NCBI GenBank assembly: GCA_902542325.1
Contig: CACBUE010000001.1
Span: 1 to 64,000 of the forward strand
DNA length: 64,000 nucleotides
Direction of reading: 5' to 3'
Source of the DNA: an uncultured SAR86 cluster bacterium
GTDB taxonomy: Bacteria > Pseudomonadota > Gammaproteobacteria > Magnimaribacterales > Magnimaribacteraceae
How positions within the stretch are numbered: the first letter of the stretch is position 1; each line of letters begins with the position of its first letter. Below are positions 2,480 through 33,897 of the stretch, in pieces. The notes under the pieces are model-generated. The model was given only the letters and a program-made list of their open reading frames with translations, did not search any database and was not told the origin of the DNA. A program made the translations under genes and the position numbers.

Positions 2480-2482
2480 ATT

Positions 2483-2722: not shown

Positions 2723-2798
2723 AAAAAAAAAGTAACATAAATTCTAGATAAAATTACTAATGAGATTTATTCTCAGATACTCTATAAAGTAGATTTTT

Positions 2799-3347
2799 AT
2801 GAGCGTTAAAGAAATATTGAGAATGGGTAACCCTCTTTTAAGAAAAGAGGCTGAAGATTTCACTATAGAAGAAATCAAAAGTCCCGAAACAAAATTATTA
2901 CTTGAAGATATGTGGGACTCTCTTGAAGTTGCTGGTGGAATTGGATTAGCAGCTCCTCAAATTGGCATTTTAAAAAAACTAGCTGTAATAAAGTTATCTG
3001 AAGAATCAGATAGATATCCAGATATGGAGGATAGTGAGCCTTATGTCATCTTTAATCCAAAAGTTTCTGTGGTGGATGAAACTGAACAAGGTTTTTGGGA
3101 AGGTTGTCTTAGTGTTCCTGGATTAAGAGGTTTTGTTGAAAGACCGAGGAGTATTAGAGTAGATTTTTTAGACGAAAATGCGGTGCCAAGAACTATTGAG
3201 GCTGAAGATTTTCTAGCTACGGTTTTTCAACATGAGTTGGATCATTTAGTTGGAAAACTTTATGTAGATAGAATGAAAGATATAAAGACTTTAATGTTTG
3301 AGGAAGAAATGGTGTTTGATGAAATAAAAGAAGAAGTCTTGGATTGA
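2799..3347 (+). CDS. def: peptide deformylase
   Basis: Removes the N-formyl group from nascent proteins using a metal centre. All three signature motifs are intact in 182 residues: GIGLAAPQ (47-54), EGCLS (101-105, metal ligand Cys103) and QHELDH (H145, E146, H149). The length is slightly above the usual 170. It lacks the common fmt neighbour and instead precedes an ADP-ribosylglycohydrolase gene by 13 nt, so it may be a second def copy; another def-fmt locus elsewhere in the genome would confirm that. Confidence 0.93.
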   Translation: MSVKEILRMGNPLLRKEAEDFTIEEIKSPETKLLLEDMWDSLEVAGGIGLAAPQIGILKKLAVIKLSEESDRYPDMEDSEPYVIFNPKVSVVDETEQGFWEGCLSVPGLRGFVERPRSIRVDFLDENAVPRTIEAEDFLATVFQHELDHLVGKLYVDRMKDIKTLMFEEEMVFDEIKEEVLD

Positions 3348-3360
3348 TAGAGGAAAAATT

Positions 3361-4428: not shown

Positions 4429-4433
4429 ATTAC

Positions 4434-5345
4434 ATGAAAAATCCGATTGCAGTCTTTGGCAGCATCAATATGGATTTAGTAGTTTATAGTTCTGCCAAAC
4501 CTAAAGATGGTGAAACAATTTTTGGAAAAAAGTTTGAAACTTTTCTTGGAGGTAAGGGTGCCAACCAAGCAGTAGCTTCCTCAAGAACAGGTTCAAATGT
4601 GTTGTTTGTCGGGACAGTTGGCAATGATCTCTATGGCGAACTACTTAGAGAAAGACTTGACTCAGAAAATATTGATACAGAATTATTGGGATGTCACGAT
4701 GGAGAATCTGGCGTGGCTTTGATTAATGTCGTCGAAAGTACCTCTCAAAATCAAATAATAGTTGTCCCAGGAGCGAATTCTCATACACGATCCGAACAGA
4801 TGAGCGATCAAGTGCTTTCATCTACGGATATCCTTATTTCTCAAATGGAAGTTGAATCCAAAGAAATTGAGAAACTGTTTTTAAGGGCTAAAGAAAGAAA
4901 TTGCTATCGTATATTAAATGTTGCGCCAGCTTTGACATTAAGTAAATCGCTTTTTTCTGACACTGATTTATTTATAGTTAACGAAATTGAGTTAGAGTCT
5001 TTAACAAAAAAATCAATTCAAATAGATTCCTTGGATTCTATCAAAGAGGGTATTGAATCCATGGGTTTAAATAATCAACAATCTATAGTCATAACTCTTG
5101 GATCTAAAGGTGTCTATATCCATCAAAATAATAAATATGAGTTTATCGAGAGTCATAAAGTTGATGCCATTGATACAACTGGATCGGGGGATTGTTTTAT
5201 CGGAGCATTAGCAAGCTCCTTACTTGAGAAGCATGATTTATCAGAGGCTGCTATTTTTGCCAATAAAGCTGCCGCTATTTCTGTGACAAAGAAAGGTGCA
5301 TCGGCTTCTATGCCAACTACCCAAGATGTCTTAGAGTTTGGATAA
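4434..5345 (+). CDS. rbsK: ribokinase (PfkB family)
   Basis: Phosphorylates ribose to ribose 5-phosphate with ATP. Both PfkB signatures are present in 303 residues: GGKGANQA (39-46) near the sugar site, and DTTGSGD (247-253), which supplies the catalytic base Asp253 and the anion hole; NEIE (183-186) is the conserved magnesium-related motif. It is 5 nt downstream of the ADP-ribosylglycohydrolase and converges with a nucleoside hydrolase that would release free ribose, which supports ribose rather than another sugar. A related PfkB sugar kinase cannot be excluded. Confidence 0.87.
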   Translation: MKNPIAVFGSINMDLVVYSSAKPKDGETIFGKKFETFLGGKGANQAVASSRTGSNVLFVGTVGNDLYGELLRERLDSENIDTELLGCHDGESGVALINVVESTSQNQIIVVPGANSHTRSEQMSDQVLSSTDILISQMEVESKEIEKLFLRAKERNCYRILNVAPALTLSKSLFSDTDLFIVNEIELESLTKKSIQIDSLDSIKEGIESMGLNNQQSIVITLGSKGVYIHQNNKYEFIESHKVDAIDTTGSGDCFIGALASSLLEKHDLSEAAIFANKAAAISVTKKGASASMPTTQDVLEFG

Positions 5346-5346
5346 A

Positions 5347-6327
5347 TTATAGTTCTACCAAAAAATCTATTACCCTCTCCTTAAATAAGGAATTAAAAGC
5401 TTCAACATCTAAATCTAAAGCAACTTCAGAGTTAGGCTTCGGCTTGAAGATCTGTCCCATAATAGATTCATTGAATTCACTAACTGTTTGTCCATCCGTA
5501 AATTCACCTTTAGTTTCTATAGATACATAGGCTTTTTTGAAATCTGCTATTTCAGGCATAAACGAGAGGGCAACAGCTAAAGAGTCATATAAATGAAGTC
5601 CCTGATCAATTATTTCTTTATTTGGATTTATTTTTAACCATGGATCTACTGATTTCTGAACAAATTGACAAAAGGGATGTTCATTTTCTCCAATTAAATT
5701 CAGCTGTTCTCTACCAAACCTAGTTTTATGACAGACATCTAATGGAACCATTCTTATTGGAATGCCAGAGCCAAAGACTCGAGCGGCTGATTCAGGATCA
5801 GCCCATACATTAAACTCTGCAGCTGGTGTAACATTTCCTTGCACAGTTGATGCTCCGGCCATCATGGTTATTTTATTTATGTGAGTTGGTAATTCAGGAT
5901 CTAAGTCTAAAGCTTGAGCGATGTTAGTTAGAGGGCCAATAGTCACAAGCTCAATATCACCAGAATTTTCTTTTGCTGTTTCAGCAATAAAGGCTGGTGC
6001 ACCTTTCTTATCATTTTCAACTGGTAGTATTGGAGTCAATTGTTCCATTTCCTCCCTTTGGCCAAGCCATTTTCTTTTTTCATTTCTATCCTGACTATAT
6101 GTTCCAGGTTTTCCAGTATGAACAGGTATATCTTTTCCAAGCTGCTCAACTAAATAAGTAGCATTGCTAAAACCTCTTTCTACAGGGACATTTCCTTGAA
6201 CGGTTGTGATGCCCAGTATTTCAAGTTCCGGAGAGTTCATCGCAAGCATAATTGCAAAACAATCTTCAGGATCACCACCCTTTGTTCCCATTGCTGGGTC
6301 AGTATCAATTATTATTTTCTTTTTCAT
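5347..6327 (-). CDS. nucleoside hydrolase (IUNH family, divergent active site)
   Basis: A 326-residue IUNH-family enzyme; the family splits ribonucleosides into base and ribose at a calcium site. DTDP (8-11) and EFNVWADPE (Asn173) are recognisable. Two departures stand out: the usual DxDPGxDD loop carries about seven extra residues before Glu21-Asp22, and the usual catalytic His-Asp pair reads Tyr247-Asp248. No signal peptide is seen, so it is likely cytoplasmic. It faces rbsK with 1 nt between stops. Membership is firm; whether purine, pyrimidine or another riboside is cleaved is open. Confidence 0.87.
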   Translation of the reverse strand: MKKKIIIDTDPAMGTKGGDPEDCFAIMLAMNSPELEILGITTVQGNVPVERGFSNATYLVEQLGKDIPVHTGKPGTYSQDRNEKRKWLGQREEMEQLTPILPVENDKKGAPAFIAETAKENSGDIELVTIGPLTNIAQALDLDPELPTHINKITMMAGASTVQGNVTPAAEFNVWADPESAARVFGSGIPIRMVPLDVCHKTRFGREQLNLIGENEHPFCQFVQKSVDPWLKINPNKEIIDQGLHLYDSLAVALSFMPEIADFKKAYVSIETKGEFTDGQTVSEFNESIMGQIFKPKPNSEVALDLDVEAFNSLFKERVIDFLVEL

Positions 6328-6369
6328 ATTTCGTGATATGTTAACTCTTTAAATAAGTAATAGGGAGAA

Positions 6370-7923
6370 ATGCTTATGAGACCAGTTGTCGAAACTAAAA
6401 GCGGACCAGTAGAAGGTTTAATTGAAGAATTTAATGGAATTAAGGGCTACAGTTTCAGAGGTATTCCTTATGCAGCTGATACATCAGGTAATAACAGATG
6501 GCGTGCTCCTCAGGATATTGAACCATGGGTAAAAAATTTTGATGCAAGTTCATTTGGACCACAATGTCCTCAATTTAGAAGAGGAGAGGGGGGATTTAGA
6601 GATTCAATTGCTAATGCTTACGAAATTGAAATACCAGAGGAGGAACCACCTCAAGAATCAGAAGATTGTTTAAGGCTGAATATCTATTCAGGAGATTTAG
6701 CTCCGAAAGAAAAGTTACCCGTTATGTTTTGGATTCATGGCGGAGCTTTAAGATTTGGATCGGGAGATAATTATTTACCGGATGGAATTCTATCTAAAGG
6801 AAAAATACTTGTAACAATAAATTATAGATTAGGAGAATTAGGTTTTTTTGCTCATCCATCAATAAATGATAGTGAAGAAGAATTTAAAACTAATTTTGGC
6901 TTACTTGATCAAATTAAGGCTTTGCATTGGGTAAGAGAAAATATAGAAAACTTTGGCGGTGATCCATCTAATATAACTATATTCGGAGAATCTGCTGGAG
7001 GATTTTCAGTTGCAACGCTTTTAGTATCTCCTCTCTCAAAAGGTCTGTTTCACAAAGCAATTGTCCAAAGTGGTGGTTTTTCAAGAATGGCTCTCCATTC
7101 GTCTGAAAAATCGAGTAATGGTTTTTCTGCTGCTGATCTCGGATCAAGATTCGGAGAATTTTGTGGTATCCCAAATAGTGATGATCAGTTAAAGCTGATG
7201 AGAGAACTTGATATAGACAAGATAATTGAGGTGGGAAAAATCGGATTTTCTTCTTCATTTTATGTTGATGATAAAACTATCCTTGCCCCTGTGATGAAGA
7301 GTTTTGAAGAAGGTTTAAATCATAAGGTCCCAACAATTATTGGGACCAATGCGGATGAAGGGACGGCGCTTTACTGGGGAAGTCCTCTGGCAGATGTAGC
7401 ACCTCCGGTTAATTCAGTAGAAAAATATAAGCTGGTCATTTTGGATAAATTTGAAGAAAAAGCTGAAAAAATTCTTTCTATTTATCCAGCCTCTGATAAA
7501 GAAGAGATGATCAAATCGAGCAAGAGATTATTGGGAGACTCTTTGTTTGGAGCACCATCTTTTTTCGCCTCTAAATTTATGGCAGAACGTTCTGAAGACA
7601 TTTATTTTTATCATTTTAATCAGAAGCCCTCAGGTAAAGCTGGAGAAGTATTAGGATCTTTCCATGCCTACGAAATAAGCTATGTCTTCGGAGTTGGAGG
7701 CTTGGGCATCATAGAAAATCAAAAGCTATCAGATATTATGCTTTCTTATTGGACAAATTTTGCTGAATCGGGAAATCCAAATTCAGAAGAGCTACCCGAA
7801 TGGGAAAAATTATTACCTGGTGAAAATAAGTGGCAGGTACTGGGATCTGAGGTAGGAAAAAAAGATATAGATAGGATAGGGATCTACGATTTACTTCAAG
7901 ACTTTGAATTCAAGGGTATTTAA
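6370..7923 (+). CDS. type-B carboxylesterase
   Basis: A 517-residue esterase of the carboxylesterase/cholinesterase family. The triad is Ser208 (FGESAGG), Glu330 (NADEG) and His432 (SFHAYE); the oxyanion loop HGGA lies at 123-126. No signal peptide is seen, so it should be cytoplasmic. The GGGAG ribosome site at 6363-6367 is only 2 nt from ATG 6370 but 8 nt from the in-frame ATG 6376, so 6376 is probably the real start. It overlaps the convergent SDR gene by 4 nt at the stop codons. Substrate unknown; hydrophobic esters are typical. Confidence 0.9.
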   Translation: MLMRPVVETKSGPVEGLIEEFNGIKGYSFRGIPYAADTSGNNRWRAPQDIEPWVKNFDASSFGPQCPQFRRGEGGFRDSIANAYEIEIPEEEPPQESEDCLRLNIYSGDLAPKEKLPVMFWIHGGALRFGSGDNYLPDGILSKGKILVTINYRLGELGFFAHPSINDSEEEFKTNFGLLDQIKALHWVRENIENFGGDPSNITIFGESAGGFSVATLLVSPLSKGLFHKAIVQSGGFSRMALHSSEKSSNGFSAADLGSRFGEFCGIPNSDDQLKLMRELDIDKIIEVGKIGFSSSFYVDDKTILAPVMKSFEEGLNHKVPTIIGTNADEGTALYWGSPLADVAPPVNSVEKYKLVILDKFEEKAEKILSIYPASDKEEMIKSSKRLLGDSLFGAPSFFASKFMAERSEDIYFYHFNQKPSGKAGEVLGSFHAYEISYVFGVGGLGIIENQKLSDIMLSYWTNFAESGNPNSEELPEWEKLLPGENKWQVLGSEVGKKDIDRIGIYDLLQDFEFKGI

Positions 7924-16568: not shown

Positions 16569-19252
16569 TATTTTTTTCTAGCATTTTTCCTAGCCATTTT
16601 TGCTTCTGCTCTTCTTAGTCTTCTGTTGCCCTGCTCTTTAGTAGTTGCTTCTTCTTGCCTGGCTGGAGTCAATGCAGATTCAGGACTAGGATGGTCTAGA
16701 TTCTGAGCTTGATTTTGTTTCGGAAGGTTCAAGTCTCCAGAATCTTCTAATTCAATTTCCACTCTTGATAAGAATCTTATGCCCTCTAATCTTATCTTAT
16801 TTAAAAGGCTCTCAAATAATTCAAATGATTCTCTTCTAAATTCAAGTTTGGGGTTTTTACTGGCATAACTTCTAAGGCCAATACCTTGTCTCAAGGCATC
16901 TACCTCTGCTAGATGATCTTTCCAAGCATTATCAATTATCTGAAGGAGTATTTGCTTCTCAAAATCTCTCATGACTGGACCTATGCTACTGCTCTTTTCA
17001 CTATAAGCCTGATTTGCAGACAAGAGTATTTTTTGCTCTACATCTTCTCGCGTCATATTACTCTCTGACGCAATCCATTGTTTGATTGGAATTTGTAGTC
17101 CAAATATATTTGATAAAGAACTTTCCAACACATCAGTATTCCATTCGTGAGGCTCTAAATCTCCAAGAGAAACAGAATCTAATTCATCTGAAATTATGGT
17201 TTCTCTCATAGAGTCAAGCAGTTCAGTTATAACGTCAGACTCAAGAATATTATTTCTTTGTGAATAGATAATTTGTCTTTGCTCGTTTGCCATATCATCA
17301 TATTCAAGTAGCATTTTCCTAATATCGAAATTTCTTCCTTCAACTCTTTTTTGCGCTCTCTCTATCGCTCCGCTCAACATCCTATGTTCGATAGATTCTC
17401 CTTCCTCCAAACCTACTCTTTGCATAATATTTTTGAATTGATCGGAAGCAAATATTCTCATCAGATTATCTTCAAGAGAAATATAAAATCTTGAAGAACC
17501 AGGATCACCTTGTCTGCCTGAACGTCCTCTAAGTTGATTATCCATTCTTCTAGATTCATTTCTTTCGGTCCCAATAACGTGTAAACCTCCAGAATTAATA
17601 ACCTCTGAATTTAGATTTTTCCATTTAGATTCCAATTCTTCTTTTTTCGAATCATCTTTGTGCTTTTCAAGCTCTGCTTCCCAGTTTCCGCCCAGAACTA
17701 TATCTGTTCCCCTACCTGCCATATTGGTAGCTATAGTAATAACACCTGGTTTACCAGCTTGTGAAATTATTTCAGCTTCTTTTGCATGATTTTTTGCATT
17801 GAGAACTTGGTGTTCAATATTCTCCTTTTTTAAAAGGCTAGATAAAAGCTCTGAACTTTCTAAAGATGCTGTGCCAACGAGTATGGGATTACCTTTATTT
17901 TTATAGTCTTTAATTTCATTTATTACAGCTTTATATTTTTCAGCTTGGGTTAAATACACAAGATCATTTTTATCATCACGAACCATAGGTTCATTGGTTG
18001 GAACTTCTAGAACATTGAGACCATAGATTTCAGCAAACTCCTCAGCTTCTGTGCTTGCTGTGCCAGTCATCCCAGATAATTTTTCATATTGCCTGAAATA
18101 ATTTTGGAAAGTACAAGACGCCAGAGTCTGACTTTCCATTTGTATGGGTACATTTTCTTTTTGCTCTATAGCTTGGTGTAAACCATCAGCCAATCTTCTT
18201 CCCGGCATCGCTCTGCCTGTGTTTTCATCAATTAATACTACTTGGTTATTTTGGACCATGTAGTCAACATCTTTCTTGAAAAGAAAGTGAGCTCTTAATG
18301 AGGATTGAATATAGTGAAGAAGTCTTAAATTTCCTGAAGAGTAAAGACTTTGATCTTCTTCGAGTAAATTATCATCTTTTAATAGCTGCTCGATGAAATC
18401 ATGTCCGAAATCCGTCAGCTCAACCTGCTTTGATTTCTCATCTATAATAAAATGACCTGTATCTTTCTTATTTTGATCTTGGTCATCCTCTTCATCTGCC
18501 TCAATAATAGTTTGTTCTTCTAATTTAGGAATAAATTTGCTAATTTTTTGATAGATCTGAGCTGTATTTTCTGCTGGTCCGGAAATAACAAGAGGAGTCC
18601 TTGCTTCATCTATAAGAATAGAATCTACTTCATCAATGATTGCAAAATAATAGTCATTCATCATCCTATCATTTGTATTCACAACCATATTATTTCTAAG
18701 AAAATCAAACCCAAGCTCATTATTAGTTGCGTATATCACATCTGCTTCATAAGCAGCTTTTCTTTCTTCTAGTTGCTGTCCTGGAATGATAAAAGATACA
18801 GACATACCTAGATTTTCATATATTGGCCCCATCCATTCTGCATCTCTTTTTGCTAAGTAATCATTCACTGTAACTAATATAACTTTTCTTTCTGTTATGG
18901 AATTGAGGTAGGAGGGCAAGGTAGCTACAAGCGTTTTACCTTCTCCAGTAGCCATTTCAGCTATTTGACAATTGTGAAGGGCTATTCCACCTATCAGCTG
19001 GCAATCGTAGTGCCTTAAACCAAGCTGTCTTGTGCTTACCTCTCTAACGACAGCAAAAGCTTCAGGGAGCAGATCATCTAAAGATTCTCCATTGTTGTGG
19101 CGGTCAATAAAATTTTCTCTCTTTTTCTTGAGATCTTCGTTGGTGAGCTTTGAATACTCTTCCTCAAGGGAATTGATAGAATTCACCAAAGGTTGAATTT
19201 TTTTTAATACTTTCTGGTTTTTTGAACCAAATATTTTATCTAATAAACCCAT
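16568..19252 (-). CDS. secA: preprotein translocase ATPase SecA, without the C-terminal zinc domain
   Basis: Motor ATPase that drives secreted proteins through SecYEG. The 894 residues include Walker A ATGEGKT (101-107), the DEVDSILIDEARTPL region, the preprotein cross-linking domain, and second-motor motifs NMAGRGTDIVLGG and QLRGRSGRQGDPG. The C-terminus (about 846-894) is a linker plus a Lys/Arg-rich tail with no cysteines, so the zinc finger that binds SecB and phospholipid in E. coli is missing. Lies between lpxC and argJ, the usual neighbours. Confidence 0.97.
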   Translation of the reverse strand: MGLLDKIFGSKNQKVLKKIQPLVNSINSLEEEYSKLTNEDLKKKRENFIDRHNNGESLDDLLPEAFAVVREVSTRQLGLRHYDCQLIGGIALHNCQIAEMATGEGKTLVATLPSYLNSITERKVILVTVNDYLAKRDAEWMGPIYENLGMSVSFIIPGQQLEERKAAYEADVIYATNNELGFDFLRNNMVVNTNDRMMNDYYFAIIDEVDSILIDEARTPLVISGPAENTAQIYQKISKFIPKLEEQTIIEADEEDDQDQNKKDTGHFIIDEKSKQVELTDFGHDFIEQLLKDDNLLEEDQSLYSSGNLRLLHYIQSSLRAHFLFKKDVDYMVQNNQVVLIDENTGRAMPGRRLADGLHQAIEQKENVPIQMESQTLASCTFQNYFRQYEKLSGMTGTASTEAEEFAEIYGLNVLEVPTNEPMVRDDKNDLVYLTQAEKYKAVINEIKDYKNKGNPILVGTASLESSELLSSLLKKENIEHQVLNAKNHAKEAEIISQAGKPGVITIATNMAGRGTDIVLGGNWEAELEKHKDDSKKEELESKWKNLNSEVINSGGLHVIGTERNESRRMDNQLRGRSGRQGDPGSSRFYISLEDNLMRIFASDQFKNIMQRVGLEEGESIEHRMLSGAIERAQKRVEGRNFDIRKMLLEYDDMANEQRQIIYSQRNNILESDVITELLDSMRETIISDELDSVSLGDLEPHEWNTDVLESSLSNIFGLQIPIKQWIASESNMTREDVEQKILLSANQAYSEKSSSIGPVMRDFEKQILLQIIDNAWKDHLAEVDALRQGIGLRSYASKNPKLEFRRESFELFESLLNKIRLEGIRFLSRVEIELEDSGDLNLPKQNQAQNLDHPSPESALTPARQEEATTKEQGNRRLRRAEAKMARKNARKK

Positions 19253-19305
19253 AAAAATTTGTTAGGCGCAATTCTAACAGTTGCTAACGAATATCAGATA
19301 AAAAA

Positions 19306-20226
19306 TTATCCCGAACTAGGATCAATGATGGGCTCGAGGTATTTGATGGGAGAATTCACTGGATCATCATAAGTTTTAACTTCCCATGTATCTGGTCTAG
19401 CAATGAGTTCTCTTAAAAGTGCATTATTTACTTTATGACCTGACTTATAGCCTTCGAAAGAGCCTACCAAATTATGACCAAGTAAGTATAAATCCCCAAT
19501 AGCATCTAGGATTTTATGCTTGATCATTTCATTCTCAACCCGCAAACCATCTTCATTTAATATGCAATCATCACCAATGGCTATTGTGTTTTTTACACTT
19601 GCTCCTAGGGCAAGATTATTTTCATTTAAAGTTTCTAGCTCGCTCATAAATCCAAAAGTCCTTGCTCTGCTTACTTCTCTTACAAATGAAGTGCTATTAA
19701 AGTTAACTGAGGCTTTTGTAGCATGATCCTTGTGAACTGGGTGGTCATATAACATTGTAAAATCTACTTTGAATCCATCAAAAGGTGATACTTGAGCCCA
19801 AGCATCATCATGGGATACTTTCACTGTATCTTTTATCCTTATGAATTTTTTTATTTGGTCTTGTTCAAGTAAACCAGCAGATTCTAATAAGAATACAAAT
19901 GGTGCAGCGCTTCCATCCATTATAGGAATTTCAGGTCCATTTACTTCTACATATGCGTTATCAATACCTAGTCCTGCTATAGCAGACATGAGATGTTCTA
20001 TAGTTGAGATTCTTGTCTCTCCTGAAGTTAGGCTAGTAGATAATGAAGTATCGCCAACATTCTCTGCCGAAGCCTTTATTTCAACAACAGGATCTAAATC
20101 AACTCTTTTAAAAATAATCCCTGTATCTGTAGGTGCAGGAAGAATCTTTAATATGATCGGATTTCCCGTATGTAAACCTACACCAAATGCCTTAATAGGA
20201 TTTTGCAGGGTTCTTTGAGTGAGCAT
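19306..20226 (-). CDS. lpxC: UDP-3-O-acyl-N-acetylglucosamine deacetylase
   Basis: First committed step of lipid A synthesis, a zinc deacetylase, marking this as a Gram-negative with LPS. In 306 residues the ligands are visible: His in [13 protein letters not shown], and His and Asp in HKILDAIGD; the catalytic His lies in SGHKVNN near the C-terminus. The N-terminal [17 protein letters not shown] is typical. Upstream of secA on the same strand with a 53-nt gap, as in many gammaproteobacteria, although ftsZ/ftsA are not adjacent. Confidence 0.96.
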
Positions 20227-23231: not shown

Positions 23232-24776
23232 ATGTCTGTCAAACATTATGATTGGTCAGCTTATCATGCTTACGTGAGGCCAACTAAGATAGCGATTCGT
23301 GATTTGAGTGCAAAACAAAGTCTTACTTACAAAGAGCTTGATGATAGAGCTTGTCTCTTAGCAAATTGGTTACAAAGAAAGGGAGTAGAAAAGGGTGATA
23401 GGGTCGCAATTTTATCTCAGAATTGTGCTGAATTTTTCGAACTAGAATTTGCATGTGCAAAAATAGGAGCTATTGAGCTCCCCTTAAATTGGCGATTAAC
23501 AAAACCTGAACTTGAATATATTCTTAATGACAGCACGCCTAAAGTTCTTATCTATGATGTATCTTTTTCCGATATCTCAAACGAATTAGTAAAAGACTGT
23601 AATATTTCCAGCTCTTTGGAGATTAATAAGGAAGATTTAGAAAGCGAGTATGAAATTACTTTAAAGGGATCTAGTTTTGATTACGATCAACCGGAAATTA
23701 CTCAAGAAGATTTGATTATGATCATGTATACATCTGGTACAACTGGTCACCCAAAAGGGGCGATGATTAATCATCAAATGCAACTGTATAACGTCATCAA
23801 TCTTGCCTCACCTGCATTTGTATCTACGGATACTGTTCAGCTAGTGGTTTTACCGCTTTTTCATACCGGGGGTATGAACTGCTATGCAAATCCTGTTTTG
23901 CATGCTGGTGGAGAATTAATTCTTATTAGAGATTTTGATCCTGGCTTAGCATTGTCAATTCTTGGAAATCCCGAATTTCAGGTATCTCATTTTTTTGCAG
24001 TTCCAGCCCCTTATCAATTCATGATGAATCATCCTGATTTTGATAGCACTGATTTATCAAGTCTGAAAGTTGCAGGAGTAGGTGGTGCTCCATGCGCAGA
24101 GGCAATACTCAGAACCTGGTCAGATAGAGGCGTTTCTATGATTCAGGGCTGGGGTATGACTGAGACAAGTCCTGGAGGAATAGGACTACCCGCTGAAGAT
24201 GCAGAAAGAAAGTTAGGCTCTGCAGGAAAACCATTATTACATACAGAAGTTAAAGTAGTTGATGATGAAGGTAAGGAACTCCCTTGGGGAGAAGTAGGTG
24301 AGCTCTATATTAGAGGTCCTAATATTACACCTGGTTACTGGAATAATGAAGAAGCTACAAAGAACTCTTTCGAAGACGATTGGCTTAAAACTGGTGATGC
24401 AGCTAGATTTGATGATGAAGGCTTTATCTATATCGTAGATCGCTGGAAAGATATGTATATATCAGGTGGAGAAAACGTTTATCCAGCGGAAGTTGAAAAT
24501 GTTCTTTATCAACTCCCGGAAATTGCTGAGGCAGCAATTATTGGTGTTCCAGATGAGAGATGGGGTGAGACAGGTATAGCTTTCATAAGCCTCAAACCGG
24601 AACAAATGCTGGAAGAAAAAGATATCATCCAGCATTGTCTAAATAACCTCGCAAAATTTAAAGTACCAAATTCAGTAGAGTTTTTAGATGCCTTACCCAG
24701 AAATGCTACTGGTAAAGTTTTAAAAAGGAATTTAAGAGATGATCTTCTTGGATCAGATGCTCCTGCAATTTCATGA
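23232..24776 (+). CDS. AMP-forming acyl-CoA synthetase / ligase
   Basis: A 514-residue adenylate-forming enzyme that activates a carboxylic acid with ATP and loads it on CoA. ATP loop YTSGTTGHPKGA (166-177), GWGMTETSPG, hinge DRWKDMYISGGENVYP and C-terminal catalytic Lys495 (ATGKVLK) are intact. The GGGGA ribosome site lies just before ATG 23232. The acid may be a fatty, aromatic or terpenoid acid; the neighbourhood (GST, LDI-like protein, SDR, VOC protein) suggests a catabolic acid rather than membrane fatty acid turnover. It overlaps the GST gene by 4 nt. Confidence 0.9.
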   Translation: MSVKHYDWSAYHAYVRPTKIAIRDLSAKQSLTYKELDDRACLLANWLQRKGVEKGDRVAILSQNCAEFFELEFACAKIGAIELPLNWRLTKPELEYILNDSTPKVLIYDVSFSDISNELVKDCNISSSLEINKEDLESEYEITLKGSSFDYDQPEITQEDLIMIMYTSGTTGHPKGAMINHQMQLYNVINLASPAFVSTDTVQLVVLPLFHTGGMNCYANPVLHAGGELILIRDFDPGLALSILGNPEFQVSHFFAVPAPYQFMMNHPDFDSTDLSSLKVAGVGGAPCAEAILRTWSDRGVSMIQGWGMTETSPGGIGLPAEDAERKLGSAGKPLLHTEVKVVDDEGKELPWGEVGELYIRGPNITPGYWNNEEATKNSFEDDWLKTGDAARFDDEGFIYIVDRWKDMYISGGENVYPAEVENVLYQLPEIAEAAIIGVPDERWGETGIAFISLKPEQMLEEKDIIQHCLNNLAKFKVPNSVEFLDALPRNATGKVLKRNLRDDLLGSDAPAIS

Positions 24777-25390
24777 TGAAGCTTTATGATTTTCCCCAAG
24801 CACCTAACCCAAGAAGGGTAAAAATATTTGCCGAAGAAAAGCAAATAGCCTTAGAGCTTGTCAACTGTGATATGGCAAGCAGAGAGCATAAGTCACCAGA
24901 ATTTTTAAAAAAGAACCCCAGTGGAAAAATTCCTGTATTAGAACTAGAAGATGGAAGATGCATATCAGAATCAATACCTATCTGCAGATATCTAGAGAGT
25001 CTCGAGCCAGAACCTAACTTATTTGGAGAAGATGCTTTTGAGACTTCATTCATCGAAAGTAGAAATAGACACATAGAGTTAGAACTTTGGACTCAGATCG
25101 GAACTTCATGGGTTAATGGACCAATTGTTGGCGCTATGGGTTTATTTAAGCAGATTCCAGCTGCCAAAGAAGCAAGTGATAATAATGTTAATTCTTACTA
25201 TAAAAGATTAGATAATGAATTCTCATCTTCAGAATATGTGGCGGGAAATAGGTATACTGTTGCAGACATTACTCTTCTATCAGCTATAGACTTTGCTTCG
25301 AGTATGGTAGAGCTTAAACCTCATGAGAGTCTAAAAAATCTGCATAGATGGCATAATCAGATACTATCAAGACCTAGTTCATCAATTTAA
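24773..25390 (+). CDS. glutathione S-transferase
   Basis: A 205-residue GST with an N-terminal thioredoxin-like domain (MKLYDFPQAPNPRRVKIFAEE, with the glutathione-contacting KIPVLELEDG and SESIPICRYLE segments) and a helical C-terminal domain (YTVADITLLSAIDFA). Starts inside the ligase stop codon (ATGA overlap), so the two are translationally coupled. In catabolic operons such GSTs act on electrophilic intermediates, epoxides or maleyl compounds; which applies here is unknown. Confidence 0.88.
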   Translation: MMKLYDFPQAPNPRRVKIFAEEKQIALELVNCDMASREHKSPEFLKKNPSGKIPVLELEDGRCISESIPICRYLESLEPEPNLFGEDAFETSFIESRNRHIELELWTQIGTSWVNGPIVGAMGLFKQIPAAKEASDNNVNSYYKRLDNEFSSSEYVAGNRYTVADITLLSAIDFASSMVELKPHESLKNLHRWHNQILSRPSSSI

Positions 25391-25397
25391 TAATCTA

Positions 25398-27059
25398 ATG
25401 CAAAACAATCATCCTGAACTGAACGAAAGAGCTAAAGGATGGCTAAATTTTTTACATCAAAAGGCAACTACATCAGATGATTGGTCAGAAGCAGGAACTC
25501 CAAATGAGTGGTGGGATCAGACATCAACACCACCAATGTGCTCTTTCCCCCGTTTTGATCTTCAAGAGTCAACCTATGCAATAGGGTTGATGGCCGATAA
25601 GACTCCTGCTTGGAGAGAGGTTTATTCAGAAATTCTTGATGAAATCGCTGAACGTTCAATTACTTACTGGGCAGCTGTTGATTGGCTATCTCAATTTGGT
25701 CATGATCCGAACAGGCAAAATTATCCCGAAGCATGGAAAGGTACTCTTATTCCAGAAGAATTTTGGGGTAATTATGACGCCCCCGGATGGACTGCTAATG
25801 GCGTTGCGCCGTGGGGATTTCATATGGATCCTATTGGTGCGGATGGTAATTTATTTTTTAAAGGCTGGCTCAATTTAACTCAATCTTTGCATACTTATGT
25901 TAGTGGTTATGATAAATGGTCTAGTTCCTTTAGTGTTGCCGGCGCTTATAATTCACGATTCGAATGGACTCAACATCAATTAGCTGACCATCTGCATCAG
26001 CAATGGTCTAAAACTCCTATGGGACCTCATTGTGAAAATACTAAAGCTTGGCCATTTTGTTTGTCAGCTGCTGGATTAGGATTAATGATGTATGACAAAA
26101 TTTTTGATAATAATTTCCATAGTTCATACTCTAATTGGTTATCTTTTACCAAAGATAAATATTATGGATTTGATAAGAGTGGTGCTTTGCAATGGGTCAC
26201 AATGTATTTCGATGAAATTAACGATCATCATCACAAAACATTACCTACTCATGGTCTTGCAATAGCGTTTTATGCAAAACCACAAGATCCTCATTTTGCT
26301 GAACTTCTTTATCGAGGTGCCATTAATTTTCTAGGATGGGACAACCCATCTATTCCGATTACAAATGAATATATATCTGATCCAAGAATGTTTGCGCTTG
26401 GATTGACTATGTCTAGAGAATTTGATGATCAAGTTACTTATGAGAGACTAAAAAAATATGCAGAAGAAAATTTTGAACCACAATTCTTTGGTATTAATGA
26501 CAGTAAGTTTGGATTTTGGTTTAACTTTGGAGAAAACTGGCCGAGAGGGCAGCTTTCTGCATTAGCCATGTGTGCAGAAGTTTGTGAACCTGATGCATGG
26601 GAAAATCTTTTCAATAATCCTAATCTAACTAAGTTCTATTCACCTAGCATTCAAGGGATTGACTTTCCATCTTTATATGTTGAAAAGGCTTTTCATGATG
26701 ACCAGAAAGGAAAATTATATTTCAGTATATGCGACGGTGATAAAACTAAGACTAATCGAAGTACAACTGTAGAAGTTTTCAATCTACCTAATTCAAATTC
26801 CATTGATGTTTTATGTGATGGTAGAGTATTTAAAGATTACAAAATCATCGATAATTCAAAAATAACTATTAATACCGAAGTGGCAAATCATAATTTTGAA
26901 ATAACGACAGGCTATTATTTATCAAAGTTAGAAGAACAAGACTTAAACAAGAAGCTTAAAGAATACAATAATCCAAATAATGAAAATTTGAGTAGTTCTT
27001 CAAAAGTAAATTCCAAATTAATCCTACCTACTAATCTTAATTCGCGCGGTTGCTGTTGA
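25398..27059 (+). CDS. linalool dehydratase/isomerase-like protein
   Basis: A 553-residue protein, Trp- and Tyr-rich, without signal peptide. Its pattern recalls the linalool dehydratase/isomerase (LDI) family, an alpha6/alpha6-barrel enzyme of monoterpene metabolism: Asp54 and Tyr60 spaced six apart, and Cys212-Glu213 with Cys221 nine residues on (HCENTKAWPFC), the spacing I recall for the LDI active-site cysteines. By the same remembered alignment the LDI active-site His is Trp157 here (NLFFKGWLNL), so chemistry may differ. Residues 430-553 add a C-terminal extension. It follows the GST by 7 nt in the putative catabolic operon. Family match from memory, not searched. Confidence 0.58.
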   Translation: MQNNHPELNERAKGWLNFLHQKATTSDDWSEAGTPNEWWDQTSTPPMCSFPRFDLQESTYAIGLMADKTPAWREVYSEILDEIAERSITYWAAVDWLSQFGHDPNRQNYPEAWKGTLIPEEFWGNYDAPGWTANGVAPWGFHMDPIGADGNLFFKGWLNLTQSLHTYVSGYDKWSSSFSVAGAYNSRFEWTQHQLADHLHQQWSKTPMGPHCENTKAWPFCLSAAGLGLMMYDKIFDNNFHSSYSNWLSFTKDKYYGFDKSGALQWVTMYFDEINDHHHKTLPTHGLAIAFYAKPQDPHFAELLYRGAINFLGWDNPSIPITNEYISDPRMFALGLTMSREFDDQVTYERLKKYAEENFEPQFFGINDSKFGFWFNFGENWPRGQLSALAMCAEVCEPDAWENLFNNPNLTKFYSPSIQGIDFPSLYVEKAFHDDQKGKLYFSICDGDKTKTNRSTTVEVFNLPNSNSIDVLCDGRVFKDYKIIDNSKITINTEVANHNFEITTGYYLSKLEEQDLNKKLKEYNNPNNENLSSSSKVNSKLILPTNLNSRGCC

Positions 27060-27114: not shown

Positions 27115-27945
27115 ATGTCTCTTTCAGAATTTTCATTAAAAGGAAAAAAAGCTTTAGTAATTGGAGCAAGAAGGAATATGGGGAAGGGCTTTGCTCTTGG
27201 ACTTGCTGAAGCAGGTGCTGATGTTGCAGTCACAGATCTAAACATCGAATCTGGTCAGCTTGATGCAGTTTGTAAAGAAATTAAGGCTATGAACAGGCAT
27301 TCTATCTGCATCAAGACAGATATTTCTTCTCAGCCAGATGTAAAAAGCATGGTTGATCAAGTTATGCAGGAATTTGGAGGTATCGATATTTTGATGAATG
27401 TAGCTGTCATGTATCACATGAAATCTGTTGTTGATCTAGATGAAGAGAGTTGGGATATGCTTAGTAATGTAAATTTGAAAGGTTACTGGCTCACTATTCA
27501 GGAAGTGGCTCCAATAATGAAGAAGCAAAAAAGTGGAAGCATAATAAACCTAACTTCGAGAGGCGGACTTAAAGCGCATGCCGATAAAGCTATGGGAAAC
27601 TACGCAATAATTAAATCAGGTATAGCAATGATGACAAGACAGTATGCAAGATATCTTGGACCTCACAATATAAGAGTCAATGCCATTGCACCTTCTTTAG
27701 TCGAGTGGGAAGAATTTCCGGGCCAAGAAAATAAAGAAAATAAAACTACAATTAAAGAAGAAGTAAAAAAAGAAATATCTGAAAAAGATAAATTTGAAGC
27801 ATGGTCTACTGGACCAGAAAATATTCCTTTAGGACGTGTTGCTACCTTTAATGAAATGGCTAATGCGGCTGTTTTCCTAGCTTCTGATGCATCTAGTTAT
27901 GTAAACGGCACTATCTTAAATGTGGATGGTGGATACATGGCATGA
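27115..27945 (+). CDS. short-chain dehydrogenase/reductase (SDR)
   Basis: A 276-residue SDR with catalytic Ser148, Tyr163 and Lys167 (YAIIK) and the usual C-terminal SSYVNGTILNVDGGY. The cofactor loop reads IGARRNMGKG rather than TGxxxGxG. A Lys/Glu-rich insertion of about 25 residues (NKENKTTIKEE onward) sits in the substrate-loop region, probably shaping specificity. Its stop overlaps the VOC gene start by 4 nt. It would oxidise an alcohol or reduce a ketone in the same pathway as the neighbouring LDI-like protein. Confidence 0.87.
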   Translation: MSLSEFSLKGKKALVIGARRNMGKGFALGLAEAGADVAVTDLNIESGQLDAVCKEIKAMNRHSICIKTDISSQPDVKSMVDQVMQEFGGIDILMNVAVMYHMKSVVDLDEESWDMLSNVNLKGYWLTIQEVAPIMKKQKSGSIINLTSRGGLKAHADKAMGNYAIIKSGIAMMTRQYARYLGPHNIRVNAIAPSLVEWEEFPGQENKENKTTIKEEVKKEISEKDKFEAWSTGPENIPLGRVATFNEMANAAVFLASDASSYVNGTILNVDGGYMA

Positions 27946-28862
27946 TAGATAACTGGGAATTCAATCATCTCGGGATGATGGTCACAGATCGAGATGAAAT
28001 ATTGAGCTACTATCAGTCTATTGGACTTGGAGTTAGCGTAGGACCTCAACCTCTATTGCCGTATATAGAAGGTGAGGGAGAGATAACTTTTTTTAAAGAG
28101 CTAGATGGCGAACCTGTCTCTCATAGATTCGTAACTGGGGGAGCGCATAGCTTCAAAGATGGACAATCACAAATTGGAAATTGTCAGTTGGAAGTTTATC
28201 CTATGCGACCTGGACCCGGCATGTTCATTAGCAGATATCTTGAGACGAAAGGTGATGGAATCAATCATATAGCTTTTAATACGACAGATATTGAAAGAGA
28301 TACACAATTCTTTTTAGATCGAGGTTGCGATTTAGTTTTTAATGTCACTACTAATGGTAAAACTGTAGAAAACTATATAGACACTAGATTGCATGGAGAT
28401 TTGATGATTTCTTTGAGACCACCTGCCGATACTTGGGAAAAATCTTGGCGAAAAAATAATGAATCACATCCTCTAGTGAACAAATGGAAATTTTTAGGAT
28501 TAGGAATATGTGTGAATGATTTGGAGTCTGCTTCTGGTTATTACTCGAAACTAGGTTACAAGAGAACTGAAGAAAAGAAGGTTAGAAAAGAATGCAAAAT
28601 AACTTCTGAAGAATTCTATGTAAGTAATGTACTTTTTGAATTGATACAGGCCGAAAAAGATAGTATTTATAAAAATTCATTAGCACAACGAGGTGATGGC
28701 GTGGCGGAAATGATATTTCAGGTTTCCGATATGAAGACAGAATTAGATTTACTTAAAAATAAAGGCGCCAAAATACTAAAAGTATCTGATGATAAGAAAA
28801 CGGCTTATATTGATTCATGCATGAAAGGTAACTTACTAACTAGGCTTATGGAAATAGACTAA
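27942..28862 (+). CDS. two-domain VOC (glyoxalase/dioxygenase fold) protein
   Basis: A 306-residue protein with two vicinal-oxygen-chelate modules: the first starts at FNHLGMMVTDRDEILSYY and includes GDGINHIAF, the second starts at FLGLGICVNDLESASGYY and includes GDGVAEMIF. This two-module layout occurs in extradiol dioxygenases and in epimerase/isomerase-type VOC proteins. His of FNHLG and of NHIAF are candidate metal ligands in module one; module two lacks the matching His. Translationally coupled to the SDR. Ring cleavage is possible but not shown. Confidence 0.78.
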   Translation: MIDNWEFNHLGMMVTDRDEILSYYQSIGLGVSVGPQPLLPYIEGEGEITFFKELDGEPVSHRFVTGGAHSFKDGQSQIGNCQLEVYPMRPGPGMFISRYLETKGDGINHIAFNTTDIERDTQFFLDRGCDLVFNVTTNGKTVENYIDTRLHGDLMISLRPPADTWEKSWRKNNESHPLVNKWKFLGLGICVNDLESASGYYSKLGYKRTEEKKVRKECKITSEEFYVSNVLFELIQAEKDSIYKNSLAQRGDGVAEMIFQVSDMKTELDLLKNKGAKILKVSDDKKTAYIDSCMKGNLLTRLMEID

Positions 28863-29159: not shown

Positions 29160-31775
29160 ATGTTTGGAAAAATTCGTGAAAAGTTAACCTTTTATCTTTC
29201 AACTCTTGTTTTATTAAATGCTTCTGCATTCGGTGGCTATGTTTTAGCACAAGATGCTTTAGAAGAAATTGTAGTTACTGCAAGGAAAAAAGCAGAGAGT
29301 TTACAAGACGTACCTTTGTCTGTTTCGGCTCTTAGAGAAAGCTCTCTTGAAGAACTTGGTGTAAATGTTTTTGAAGATTATTTACTCCAGCTTCCTAGCG
29401 TCACAGCTGGTGGAGCTGGTCCAGGAACAAGTACTATCTACATCAGAGGTCTTGCATCCACAACCCCAAACCTTACAACAGCAGGAGTTGGTGGTTTGGC
29501 CCCAAACGTATCATTTTATCTTGATGAGCAACCCCTGGCTCAACCAGGTAGGAATCTAGATGTTTATGCCGCAGATATTGGCCGTATAGAAGTATTAAAA
29601 GGACCACAAGGAACACTTTTTGGAGCTAGTTCACAAGCAGGTGTAGTAAGAATGATTACTAATAAACCTATAATAGGTGAGTCCGAAACAAATATCGAAG
29701 TGGAATCTAGATATATGTCTGAAGGTGATACCGGAGGTAAAGTTGAGTTCGTAACAAATCTTTCTCTTGGCGATACTTCAGCTGCTAGATTGGTAGCCTA
29801 TAGAGATAGAAGAGGTGGTTACATTGATCAAGTTGCTGGCAAAGTAGATGCTAGCCAATCAGCTCGCTTCAGGCCTTCAGGTACCGTAAGAAGCAATGGA
29901 CTTCCTGTTTCTGAAGGAAGAAATGGTTTTCAGGCTGGTGCAGATCTTTCTGGAGTAACTTTTGCTGATGCAAATGCTATCGTTAAAGAAGATATTAATG
30001 AAGTCACGTATGAAGGTTTTAGATTAAGTTTAGCTCAAGAAATAAATGATAACTGGGATGCCTTAGTATCAGTTTCGAATCAAACAATTGAATCAGATGG
30101 AGTATTTTTTACTGACCCAACTTTGGGTGATCTTGAAATCCAAAGATATCACAATGATACTTTAGAAGATGAATTCGATAATATGAGTTTGACCATTGAA
30201 GGTTCAATTGGTGACCTAGAAGTTGTTTACGCTGGCGCTTATACAGACAGAACTTCTGATCAGATCATTGATTACACAGATTACCTTTTTGTTGGTCAAT
30301 ATCTTCCTTATTACATTTGTGATTATTATGTAACTTACACAAAATATGCGCCTGGAAATGTACCAACTGGTGCTTGTCCTGCTCCCGATATGTTTGTTGA
30401 TTCACTGACAGATTCAAAAGTAAAAACACATGAAATCAGAATAAATGCACCCATTAGCGAGAACATGAGTATCACAGCTGGAGCATTTATGAGTGACCTT
30501 GAATTAAAAGAGCATAATATGTTTACTTATCCCGGTGCAGTTGAAAGCGATATTGGATGGGGCCCAAATTATGCTCTGACAGATACTTCTGTAGCTGGTT
30601 ATCAAGCTTTACTAGACGGTGATGGAAATTTAAAGTCTAAACAATACGCAGCTGCTGGATGGCATTCTGGTAGAGGTCCTTACATGCCGCCTGTAATGTT
30701 CGTAAATGATATTAAAAGAACAGACAAACAAAAAGGGATTTTTGGCGAACTAGCTATCGATTTGTCAGACACAATTGAATTAACGGTAGGTGCTCGTTGG
30801 TATGATATTGCAGTGGATCTAGAAGGAGCTGCAAATGCTGGATTTACAACTGGTTTTCTGAGTGCTGGAGCTGATCATCGCGACCAACAAAGATTTGGTA
30901 CTAATTTATCAGCAGCATTTAATGAACCTGGTGTTGTTACAGGTAATCCATTTATAGATGAATTGAATTATCCCGATAAGGCTGAATCGGATGGAGTTAT
31001 CGGAAAAGCTACTCTATCTTGGAATAAGTCAGAAGATGTAATGTATTACGTAACTTGGTCTGAGGGATTTAGGCCAGGACTATTAAATCGTCCAGCAGGT
31101 CAATCAACACCAGACGGATCCTATACTGTAAGACCTGTGACTGATTCTGATGAAGTCACTAATTATGAATTTGGTTGGAAGACAGTTTTACAAGATGGAA
31201 GATTGAGATTTAATGGTAGTGTGTTTATGGTCGATGTCTCAGGTTTACAAACAACTATTTTCGATCCAAGTATTGCTAATTTATTCTTCTCTGACAATGC
31301 CGCAGATGCAGACATAACTGGTTTGGAAGGTGACTTTATTTATTACCCAAATATTGATGGTTTAATGATATCTGGAGCTTTTTCGTTACTAGATACGGAG
31401 ATAAAAAAATCTCTCACAACCAATGATGTAATAGCTGGAAAAGATTTAGCTTTTGCTCCCGGAATGCAGGCTAATATATCAGCAAGATATGAGTGGGACG
31501 TGGCCTCTGGTAACTTAGGTCATATTCAAGGTCAGCTTGTAGCATCAGACAAAAGTTTTTCTGACATTATAGAACCCAATAAAGCAAAACAAGACAGTTA
31601 TAGTTATGCAAATATTCGGGCTGGTATCAGTAATGATTCTTGGGTAGCTGAAATGTATATAGACAACATTACAGATGAAAGAGCTGAAATAAGTAACAAC
31701 TATGTTTTTGACAGACAAAGAGTTGCTGTAATAAGACCCATGACTATTGGCCTTAGATACAAGCTAAACTTTTAA
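29160..31775 (+). CDS. TonB-dependent outer-membrane receptor
   Basis: An 871-residue outer-membrane transporter. A signal peptide (Lys/Arg start, hydrophobic 11-30, cleavage near LAQ/D31) is followed by the TonB box LEEIVVT (34-40), the plug domain (DVPLSVSAL, STIYIRGLAS, RIEVLKGPQGTLFGASSQAGVV) and a beta-barrel ending in the outer-membrane signature LRYKLNF. It resembles the broad receptor class used by marine heterotrophs for large or hydrophobic organics rather than a known siderophore receptor. It follows the LDI-like cluster by about 160 nt and ends at a strong terminator. Confidence 0.95.
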   Translation: MFGKIREKLTFYLSTLVLLNASAFGGYVLAQDALEEIVVTARKKAESLQDVPLSVSALRESSLEELGVNVFEDYLLQLPSVTAGGAGPGTSTIYIRGLASTTPNLTTAGVGGLAPNVSFYLDEQPLAQPGRNLDVYAADIGRIEVLKGPQGTLFGASSQAGVVRMITNKPIIGESETNIEVESRYMSEGDTGGKVEFVTNLSLGDTSAARLVAYRDRRGGYIDQVAGKVDASQSARFRPSGTVRSNGLPVSEGRNGFQAGADLSGVTFADANAIVKEDINEVTYEGFRLSLAQEINDNWDALVSVSNQTIESDGVFFTDPTLGDLEIQRYHNDTLEDEFDNMSLTIEGSIGDLEVVYAGAYTDRTSDQIIDYTDYLFVGQYLPYYICDYYVTYTKYAPGNVPTGACPAPDMFVDSLTDSKVKTHEIRINAPISENMSITAGAFMSDLELKEHNMFTYPGAVESDIGWGPNYALTDTSVAGYQALLDGDGNLKSKQYAAAGWHSGRGPYMPPVMFVNDIKRTDKQKGIFGELAIDLSDTIELTVGARWYDIAVDLEGAANAGFTTGFLSAGADHRDQQRFGTNLSAAFNEPGVVTGNPFIDELNYPDKAESDGVIGKATLSWNKSEDVMYYVTWSEGFRPGLLNRPAGQSTPDGSYTVRPVTDSDEVTNYEFGWKTVLQDGRLRFNGSVFMVDVSGLQTTIFDPSIANLFFSDNAADADITGLEGDFIYYPNIDGLMISGAFSLLDTEIKKSLTTNDVIAGKDLAFAPGMQANISARYEWDVASGNLGHIQGQLVASDKSFSDIIEPNKAKQDSYSYANIRAGISNDSWVAEMYIDNITDERAEISNNYVFDRQRVAVIRPMTIGLRYKLNF

Positions 31776-31866: not shown

Positions 31867-33897
31867 ATGAATGATGACCAATTCGATTTAGATGAGACCA
31901 CGCTTTCCGTGGATTTGAGTAATGCTACTCAAGCAGTAAAAGAGAGTAGATTTGAAGATGCCTTTAATTTACTAAAAGTTCTTCTCAAGGAGAATCCTGA
32001 TCATATCGATATTCTATACTTGACAGCAGTTTCAACTAGATTTTTAAAAAAGTTTGATGATTCGAGGAAACATATTGAACATTTACTTTTCAATGCTCCT
32101 GATATGGGTCGCGCTTATCAAGAACTCGGTCACCTTAATAGAGACATCGGGAATGAAGAAAAATCAATTACTCATTACAGGCAAGCATGTGAACTTAATC
32201 CAGCTTTACCGGCATCCTGGAATGCCTTGCACAAATACTTTGAAAAACTTAATAACAAACCTGCAGCAGATCATGCTTTAGAGCAGATCAAGAAATTACA
32301 GACCTTACCAGGACAACTTTTGTTTATCGAGCAGATTCTCAACGAAGGAAGATTAGGACTTGCCGAGACAAAATGTAGAGCTTTTCTTAAAGAAAACCCT
32401 ACCCATACATATGCTATGTCTTTGCTTGCTGAAATTGCTAACAGATTTGGATATTTTGATGATGCAGAATTTTTGCTTCAAAAGGCTGTTGAATTTAAAC
32501 CCAAAGATGGTGATCTCAGGCTGAAATATGCCTCTATACTCAGGAAAAAACAAAAATTTGCTCAGACTACAGAACAAGTAGATATCTTATGTAATCAATT
32601 TCCTGATAACCTCAATTATCGTGCCCAAAAGGCTAGTGATGTTATGCAAGGCGGAGATCATGCAAAGGCCATAACTATGTTTGATGATATCCTCAAGATG
32701 AACCCATATAACTTTAGTACTCTGATATCTAAAGGTCATGCTCAAAAGACCTTGGGCTTTACTGATCAAGCAATCAAAAGCTATCAAACTGCTTATCAAA
32801 TAAAACCAGATCATGGAGAAGCTTTCTTTTCTCTCGCAAATTTGAAAACTTATTCTTTTTCTCAAAATGAATTGGATAGCATGCGAGAGCAAGTGCAGAG
32901 AGTTGATTTATCTTTAAGAGATAAGGCTTATTTTCACTTTGCTTTAGCTCAAGGCTGTGAGGTTAATGGAGAATACGAAGAAGCCTTTTTTCATTTAGAC
33001 AGAGGTAATCAGATAAAGAAGGATCAGAGTAAGTATTCAATTGAAAATATGGAGAGAGAATTTCAAGCACAAATAGATGTTTGCGACGAAGCTTTTTTTG
33101 AACAATTAGGTCAAGGTGGCCACGATACCAAAGATCCAATATTTATACTTGGTTTACCAAGAGCTGGATCAACATTAGTAGAGCAAATACTAGCATCACA
33201 TTCTATGATTGATGGTACTCTTGAACTTCCTAATATCCTTTCGATGGCTCAAAGTCTCAGAGGCGATGATATCTATGGAAAAGATGGCAACTATCCAAGG
33301 GCCATGGAGTCTTTGACATTACAACAAAGAGAGAATTTTGGAAAAAGCTTTATTGAAGAAACAAGAATGCATAGAAAAAATGCTCCAATGTTCACAGATA
33401 AGATGCCTAATAATTTTAGACATATTGGTTTAATCCATTTAATTATGCCAAATGCAAAGATAATTGATGCAAGAAGATATCCTTTAGATTGCTGTTTTAG
33501 TATGTTCAAGCAACTCTTTGCACAGGGACAGGAGTTTACATATGGCCTACGTGAAGCCGGTAGCTATTACAATAGCTATACAAAACTTATGGATCACTGG
33601 GATAGAGTCTTACCGGGTAAGGTATTGAGATTTAATAATGAAGATGTTGTTGAAGATCTTGAGAATCAGGTTTCAAGACTGCTTGAATTTTTAGAGATAC
33701 CTTTTGAGGAACAATGCATCTCTTTTTATGAGACGGATAGATTAATAAGAACGCCTAGCTCAGAACAAGTTAGAAAACCTGTCAATAAAGATGGCATGGG
33801 AAGATGGAAACCTTATGCTAAATATTTAAAACCACTCCTCGATGTCATAGATGAAGATCATCTTAAGCCTGAAGATATTGCTTATATAAGAGGTTAG
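31867..33897 (+). CDS. TPR-repeat protein with C-terminal sulfotransferase domain
   Basis: A 676-residue fusion. Residues 1-380 are tetratricopeptide-like helices (repeated units such as AIKSYQTAYQIKPDHGEAFFSLA); from about 425 a sulfotransferase domain begins with the PAPS phosphate loop FILGLPRAGSTLVEQ, and continues through DKMPNNFRHIGLI and INKDGMGRWKPY-type motifs. It would transfer sulfate from PAPS to a hydroxyl or amine, with the TPR part holding a partner or substrate. No signal peptide. Such fusions recur in marine alpha- and gammaproteobacteria; substrates are mostly unknown. A BCCT gene follows after 7 nt. Confidence 0.85.
   Translation: MNDDQFDLDETTLSVDLSNATQAVKESRFEDAFNLLKVLLKENPDHIDILYLTAVSTRFLKKFDDSRKHIEHLLFNAPDMGRAYQELGHLNRDIGNEEKSITHYRQACELNPALPASWNALHKYFEKLNNKPAADHALEQIKKLQTLPGQLLFIEQILNEGRLGLAETKCRAFLKENPTHTYAMSLLAEIANRFGYFDDAEFLLQKAVEFKPKDGDLRLKYASILRKKQKFAQTTEQVDILCNQFPDNLNYRAQKASDVMQGGDHAKAITMFDDILKMNPYNFSTLISKGHAQKTLGFTDQAIKSYQTAYQIKPDHGEAFFSLANLKTYSFSQNELDSMREQVQRVDLSLRDKAYFHFALAQGCEVNGEYEEAFFHLDRGNQIKKDQSKYSIENMEREFQAQIDVCDEAFFEQLGQGGHDTKDPIFILGLPRAGSTLVEQILASHSMIDGTLELPNILSMAQSLRGDDIYGKDGNYPRAMESLTLQQRENFGKSFIEETRMHRKNAPMFTDKMPNNFRHIGLIHLIMPNAKIIDARRYPLDCCFSMFKQLFAQGQEFTYGLREAGSYYNSYTKLMDHWDRVLPGKVLRFNNEDVVEDLENQVSRLLEFLEIPFEEQCISFYETDRLIRTPSSEQVRKPVNKDGMGRWKPYAKYLKPLLDVIDEDHLKPEDIAYIRG

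Follow-up and report, generated by a model that had tools for sequence, protein, structure and literature searches.

The window analyzed here is a 64,000-nucleotide stretch of the small genome of an uncultured ocean bacterium of the SAR86 cluster (GenBank GCA_902542325.1, contig CACBUE010000001.1). It carries a tight operon in which one gene encodes a protein of the Ldi superfamily, named for linalool dehydratase-isomerase (LDI). The genes of the locus are as follows.

23232–24776, + strand: acyl-CoA ligase, the first gene of the operon (PF00501, 2e-95; NCBIfam NF004837, above cut-off)
24773–25390, + strand: glutathione S-transferase (GST) family protein (PF02798, 1e-16)
25398–27059, + strand: Ldi-superfamily protein, 553 aa (PF18566 match, profile-PDB match, orthologues)
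27115–27945, + strand: SDR-family dehydrogenase (PF13561, 6e-56)
27942–28862, + strand: two-domain VOC/glyoxalase-fold protein (PF13669, 7e-14, two stretches)
29160–31775, + strand: TonB-dependent outer-membrane receptor, next downstream (PF00593/PF07715)

The GST gene overlaps the ligase gene and lies 7 bases ahead of the Ldi gene, and the VOC gene overlaps the SDR gene. The solved structures nearest to the ligase are fatty-acyl/feruloyl-CoA synthetase and FadD13, and the VOC protein is weakly similar to methylmalonyl-CoA epimerase. A first-pass annotation of this DNA had named an acyl-CoA ligase, an SDR, and a VOC protein as neighbors, which Pfam shows to be correct; the gene directly upstream is the GST. 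The TonB receptor follows the operon in most relatives, and its tie to the operon is uncertain. Just past it, positions 31867–33897 encode a TPR-repeat protein fused to a sulfotransferase domain.

The Ldi open reading frame is intact, without interruption, and orthologues that are 78–99% identical occupy the same operon position in nine contigs (named SAR86 or Gammaproteobacteria), indicating that it is a real gene. It is present once in its own genome; the closest named record is a 99% identical protein from SAR86 genome AG-461-M22. Across the SAR86 loci of the two genera examined, the constant core is ligase-GST-Ldi, and in loci L007 and L008 the SDR and VOC genes are absent after the Ldi gene. 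At L009 (5805–7991), ligase and GST are read as one ORF through a small length change around an A run, which is probably a sequence error. At L043 (genome G382, contig C14), Ldi, SDR, and VOC genes occur twice in inverted orientation (1965–7321 and 17257–19898) with one VOC cut short, reflecting either a real inverted duplication or an assembly artifact.

Gene context varies beyond these loci. The Ldi gene of other SAR86 genera adjoins a sulfatase and a desaturase (L045), lies between a DAPG-hydrolase-like protein (PF18089) and a PF04199 cyclase (L046, 1622–5473), or is found near a P450, an amidase, and an amidohydrolase (L047). In L039, it adjoins a P450, an epimerase/3-beta-HSD-like protein, and a zinc alcohol dehydrogenase. 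No catabolic partner was recognized beside the Ldi gene at L086. We also considered whether the 205-aa product encoded ahead of the Streptomyces Ldi gene is a GST, which would make a conserved GST-Ldi pair, and rejected this for lack of similarity or any Pfam match. Together with the type of ligase, these neighborhoods suggest hydrophobic-compound catabolism, consistent with the capacity reported in SAR86 genomes for steroid side chains and aromatic/polycyclic compounds and with their many GSTs (PMC11582366).

Within the Ldi gene, the following features are used below.

25557–25577, + strand: D54 through Y60, opposite LDI S66 and Y72 (HHalign and MAFFT)
25824–26483, + strand: Ldi domain match, residues 143–362 (Pfam PF18566)
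25866–25868, + strand: W157, at the LDI H128 position (alignments)
26028–26036, + strand: H211-C212-E213, a clade-specific His followed by the putative catalytic Cys-Glu (LDI C170-E171; MAFFT)
26058–26060, + strand: C221, the counterpart of LDI C179 (MAFFT)
26673–26906, + strand: C-terminal beta-rich domain, residues 426–503, predicted beta-sandwich (structure model, weak Foldseek matches)
27045–27056, + strand: C-terminal cysteine tail R-G-C-C, C-x-C-C in other SAR86 orthologues (alignment)

The sole Pfam match of the 553-residue protein is to the Ldi domain, at 45.2 bits (E 1.2e-11) against a curated gathering cut-off of 26.1 bits. In a single-sequence search of the PDB, no chains but those of LDI approached significance (E 0.0045), and a profile built from ten relatives matched LDI chains at 2e-13. 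HHalign paired residues 10–363 with LDI at 98–99% over about 291–331 columns; on the basis of this profile alignment, an (alpha/alpha)6 barrel is the likely fold. An AlphaFold2 model of the full protein, computed with a shallow set of 10 orthologue sequences, reached a pLDDT of only 37, too low for use. These searches, including the HMM comparison that the first-pass annotation had proposed as a check, bear out its claim of an LDI-like protein. The N-terminus, MQNNHPELNERAKGWLNFLHQ, has no hydrophobic leader or signal peptide by inspection, Ldi homology starts near residue 10, and no transmembrane segments were seen by inspection.

LDI is of interest as a rare case of an enzyme converting alcohols to alkenes without a cofactor. 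It is a periplasmic protein made with a signal peptide, forms a homopentamer whose active sites lie between subunits, and interconverts myrcene, linalool, and geraniol. To our knowledge, it and linalool isomerase (Lis) are the only characterized Ldi members, and both are alcohol isomerases/dehydratases. The activity of LDI requires C170 and C179, and no cofactor has been seen in it (PMC6600392; also PMC12455561). A C48–C101 disulfide that caps the LDI active site is likewise essential (PMC6600392), and Lis requires a reductant (PMC4791888).

We assigned residue equivalences from HHalign and from a MAFFT alignment of 24 sequences spanning LDI, Lis-like proteins, and the SAR86-type clade. LDI numbering was taken from the PDB chain sequence by fixing D38 and then verifying Y44, C48, Y65, C101, H128, C170, and C179. 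Both methods place C170/E171/C179 of LDI at C212/E213/C221, as the spacing of these residues had led the first-pass annotation to propose, and the Cys-Glu-x7-Cys motif (CE-x7-C) is invariant in 24/24 aligned proteins. Its suggestion that Trp157 occupies the LDI His site was also right, since W157 aligns with H128 by both methods. Its pairing of D54/Y60 with D38/Y44 was mistaken: D38 and Y44 align with A23 and S30, and D54 and Y60 fall at the positions listed above, so the shared six-residue spacing is a coincidence. HHalign and MAFFT further give C48 to T34 and Y65 to F53, and MAFFT gives C101 to T89. The N-terminal alignment around D38/Y44 is less certain than the core and is anchored by L040, whose GKPHEAWD bridges GCSFEAWE of LDI and GTPNEWWD of the SAR86 protein.

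Among the 24 sequences, His at the H128 site is confined to LDI and the two proteins nearest to it, L051 and L057; the SAR86-type clade has Trp or Phe, and the remainder have Tyr, except for Trp in L012. H211, directly before the catalytic Cys position, is present in 15/15 clade members and 0/9 other sequences. The MAFFT alignment also shows K216 as a gain of the clade and an insert of about 40 residues with PGWxANG ahead of the DPIG motif. D27, D28, W29, and D54 are invariant within the clade and may be candidate stand-ins for the lost acid/base groups. The change of acid/base residue that had been proposed thus stands for the His, but the set is larger: D38, Y44, H128, and the C48–C101 disulfide are lost, and H211 is new. 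Because CE-x7-C and PF18566 are kept while H128, D38, Y44, the disulfide, and the signal peptide are missing, we assign the protein from its sequence to the Ldi superfamily, and not as an LDI orthologue.

Comparison with individual relatives sharpens this picture. LDI (LinD) of Castellaniella defragrans (PDB 5g1u/5hlr/5i3t) shares with the SAR86 protein, besides the Ldi domain and the Cys-Glu-Cys residues, a DPI...N-x-x-x-K-G-x-L-N-L block; it differs in the substitutions given above and in its signal peptide, and the SAR86 protein adds the insert, the beta-rich C-terminal domain, and the Cys tail. Lis of Thauera linaloolentis, represented in the alignment by L011, a relative of similar membrane-anchored build, belongs to the superfamily, is larger than LDI, and has a catalytic domain predicted to be cytoplasmic. 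Four N-terminal transmembrane helices are predicted for Lis, in contrast to the SAR86 protein. L040 (genome G091, 31% identity), a Tyr-type protein, has a GxPHEAWD N-terminus, the C-terminal architecture, a PGWAANG insert, and CE-x7-C in common with the SAR86 protein, but carries Tyr at the H128 site and Ala at the H211 site and lacks the Cys tail.

In a maximum-likelihood tree of Ldi proteins, the SAR86 orthologues form one clade with the L039 protein of G046 (another gammaproteobacterial family), proteins of G1258, G952, and G969 (same phylum, different class), and a protein encoded on a Streptomyces plasmid. This clade is set apart from L040 with support of 100/98. LDI, L051, and L057 form a separate group (100/99), and the deep branching order is unsure because several branches are long. 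Clade members from other taxa (L039, 52% identity; L077; L078; L079; Streptomyces plasmid L037, 38%) have Trp or Phe where LDI has H128, carry GPHCENTK or GLHCENTK, and share the insert and the C-terminal domain, and all but Streptomyces share the Cys tail. They differ in their gene neighbors and, for L039, L077, and L078, in a tail longer than CxCC.

The clade spans 18/35 genomes of the window's SAR86 family, three genomes of another class, one other gammaproteobacterium, and two Streptomyces plasmids, both of whose matches are 38.5% identical to the SAR86 protein. Within the SAR86 order, 18/203 genomes have this gene, all of them in the window's own family. In the other class, the profile matched 9/385 genomes, with three full-length clade members, one clade fragment (L080, at a contig end), and the rest short or distant. 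Any Ldi member was found in 6/369 sampled gammaproteobacterial genomes; such proteins are still uncommon, but less rare than the first-pass annotation had implied. Viral contigs, scanned twice for diverse Ldi relatives, yielded none.

Some of the other Ldi loci have distinctive surroundings. L057 (7142–10563) encodes an LDI-type protein of 383 aa that keeps the His, near a GST/maleylacetoacetate-isomerase-like gene and a two-cupin gentisate-dioxygenase-like protein. L052 (3255–14222) encodes a membrane-anchored Lis-like protein among oxygenase-like genes, resembling in sequence a luciferase-type monooxygenase, an FAD hydroxylase, and a Rieske-type oxygenase. L052 belongs to genome G091, which thus has two Ldi proteins, the second being L040.

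Residues 426–503, folded alone, gave a beta-rich model with pLDDT mostly 75–89 (mean 70 for the C-terminal domain modeled alone). Foldseek gave weak hits for it (best E 0.004), mainly to beta-sandwich domains of GH30/GH51 glycoside hydrolases, which do not suffice to assign a function. The C-terminal extension noted earlier does exist but is not peculiar to this protein, as most distant superfamily relatives also run past the LDI domain. Beyond the beta-rich domain lie a variable linker and then the cysteine tail. C-x-C-C ends every other SAR86 orthologue fetched; in L039 (CACC) and in L077 and L078 (both CPCC), a few more residues come after the motif, L079 ends in CSSSCC, and Streptomyces clade members have no Cys tail. 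Across the 14 tailed sequences, mean column conservation is 0.43 for linker residues 506–540 and 0.86, 1.0, and 1.0 for the three Cys positions. In the window, the first tail Cys is replaced by Arg through one T-to-C difference at 27045 (CGC for TGC, 27045–27047); L001, a relative with 99% identity, reads TGC at this codon, and among the genomes fetched Arg occurs in this genome only. It may be a genuine substitution or an error in the sequence.

Our best explanation, held tentatively, is a cytoplasmic, cofactor-free Ldi-superfamily enzyme whose hydrophobic substrate, an alcohol or alkene, gains or loses a hydroxyl or has one shifted. We favor it because PF18566 scores above its cut-off, the profile alignment covers approximately 290–330 columns, and the counterparts of C170/E171/C179 are invariant, two of them essential cysteines in LDI, with Lis being reductant-dependent. 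The ligase/SDR operon, the P450 and dehydrogenase neighbors in L039 and L047, and the SAR86 genes reported for hydrophobic-compound and steroid side-chain degradation add to the case. Counting against it, several LDI key positions are lost, so the reaction may differ, and gene context is varied (L045, L046, L047, and L086). These same losses of D38, Y44, and H128, with the gain of H211 and K216, the PGWxANG insert, and the varying catabolic neighbors, speak for other chemistry on the same fold and Cys-Glu-Cys center, for instance, that of a lyase, hydrolase, or isomerase whose substrate is a ring compound, acid, or CoA ester; C212 would then be the nucleophile, and H211 would act as base for it. 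We regard such other chemistry as a real possibility, though not the expected outcome, since LDI and Lis are alcohol enzymes and the operon suits alcohol-to-acid catabolism.

Two further readings fit the data poorly. The C-x-C-C ending is unusual and strongly kept despite the variable linker before it, as might be expected of a scaffold or binding protein, or of a tail serving as an export, lipidation, or metal-binding signal, in a protein that is no enzyme of the Ldi type. The invariance of the catalytic triad across the superfamily makes this quite improbable, and we rejected a genome-wide sorting signal, as no other long ORF of the genome was found to end in CxCC. The domain match and CE-x7-C would also be expected if the protein were a genuine LDI or Lis, with linalool, myrcene, or geraniol as substrate; with H128, D38, Y44, the disulfide, and the signal peptide missing, and with LDI clustering with the His-bearing L051 and L057 away from the SAR86-type clade, this is highly improbable.

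Under the favored hydroxyl-transforming reading, catalysis would be of the acid/base type. C212, E213, and C221 would transfer protons to and from the substrate, like their LDI counterparts; H211, perhaps with D27, D28, or D54, would replace H128/D38; and W157 would line the pocket or stabilize a cationic intermediate. The substrate may resemble an isoprenoid; the side chain carried by a terpenoid, a sterol, or a product of pigment breakdown is one example. The isoprenoid-alcohol chemistry proposed in the first-pass annotation is possible on this sequence evidence. The SDR would oxidize the product alcohol and the ligase would then form a CoA ester, feeding CoA-ester catabolism. The tail of two or three Cys may protect the thiols of the active site from oxidation when cells live aerobically. 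For the cholesterol side chain in Sterolibacterium, an earlier proposal invoked a tertiary-to-primary hydroxyl shift of the LDI kind (PMC3691188); the evidence on the SAR86 protein points to hydrophobic compounds broadly, not to sterols in particular.

Among the papers searched, we found none tying SAR86 to LDI-family enzymes, nothing on PF18566, and, for fungal homologues, nothing on LDI relatives. The SAR86 Ldi branch is real, distinct from LDI, and apparently uncharacterized. At its most ambitious, the case would be for a widespread aerobic cytoplasmic branch whose rebuilt H211/W157 site performs a new (de)hydration or hydroxyl shift on an isoprenoid or sterol product common in the sea, and whose CxCC is a built-in thiol reductant protecting oxygen-sensitive catalytic cysteines; we consider this full version unlikely. 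The clade supplies homologues that differ at the LDI His site. SAR86 is among the most abundant bacterial groups of the ocean, and its apparently cytoplasmic Ldi branch would carry LDI chemistry into aerobic surface-ocean carbon cycling.
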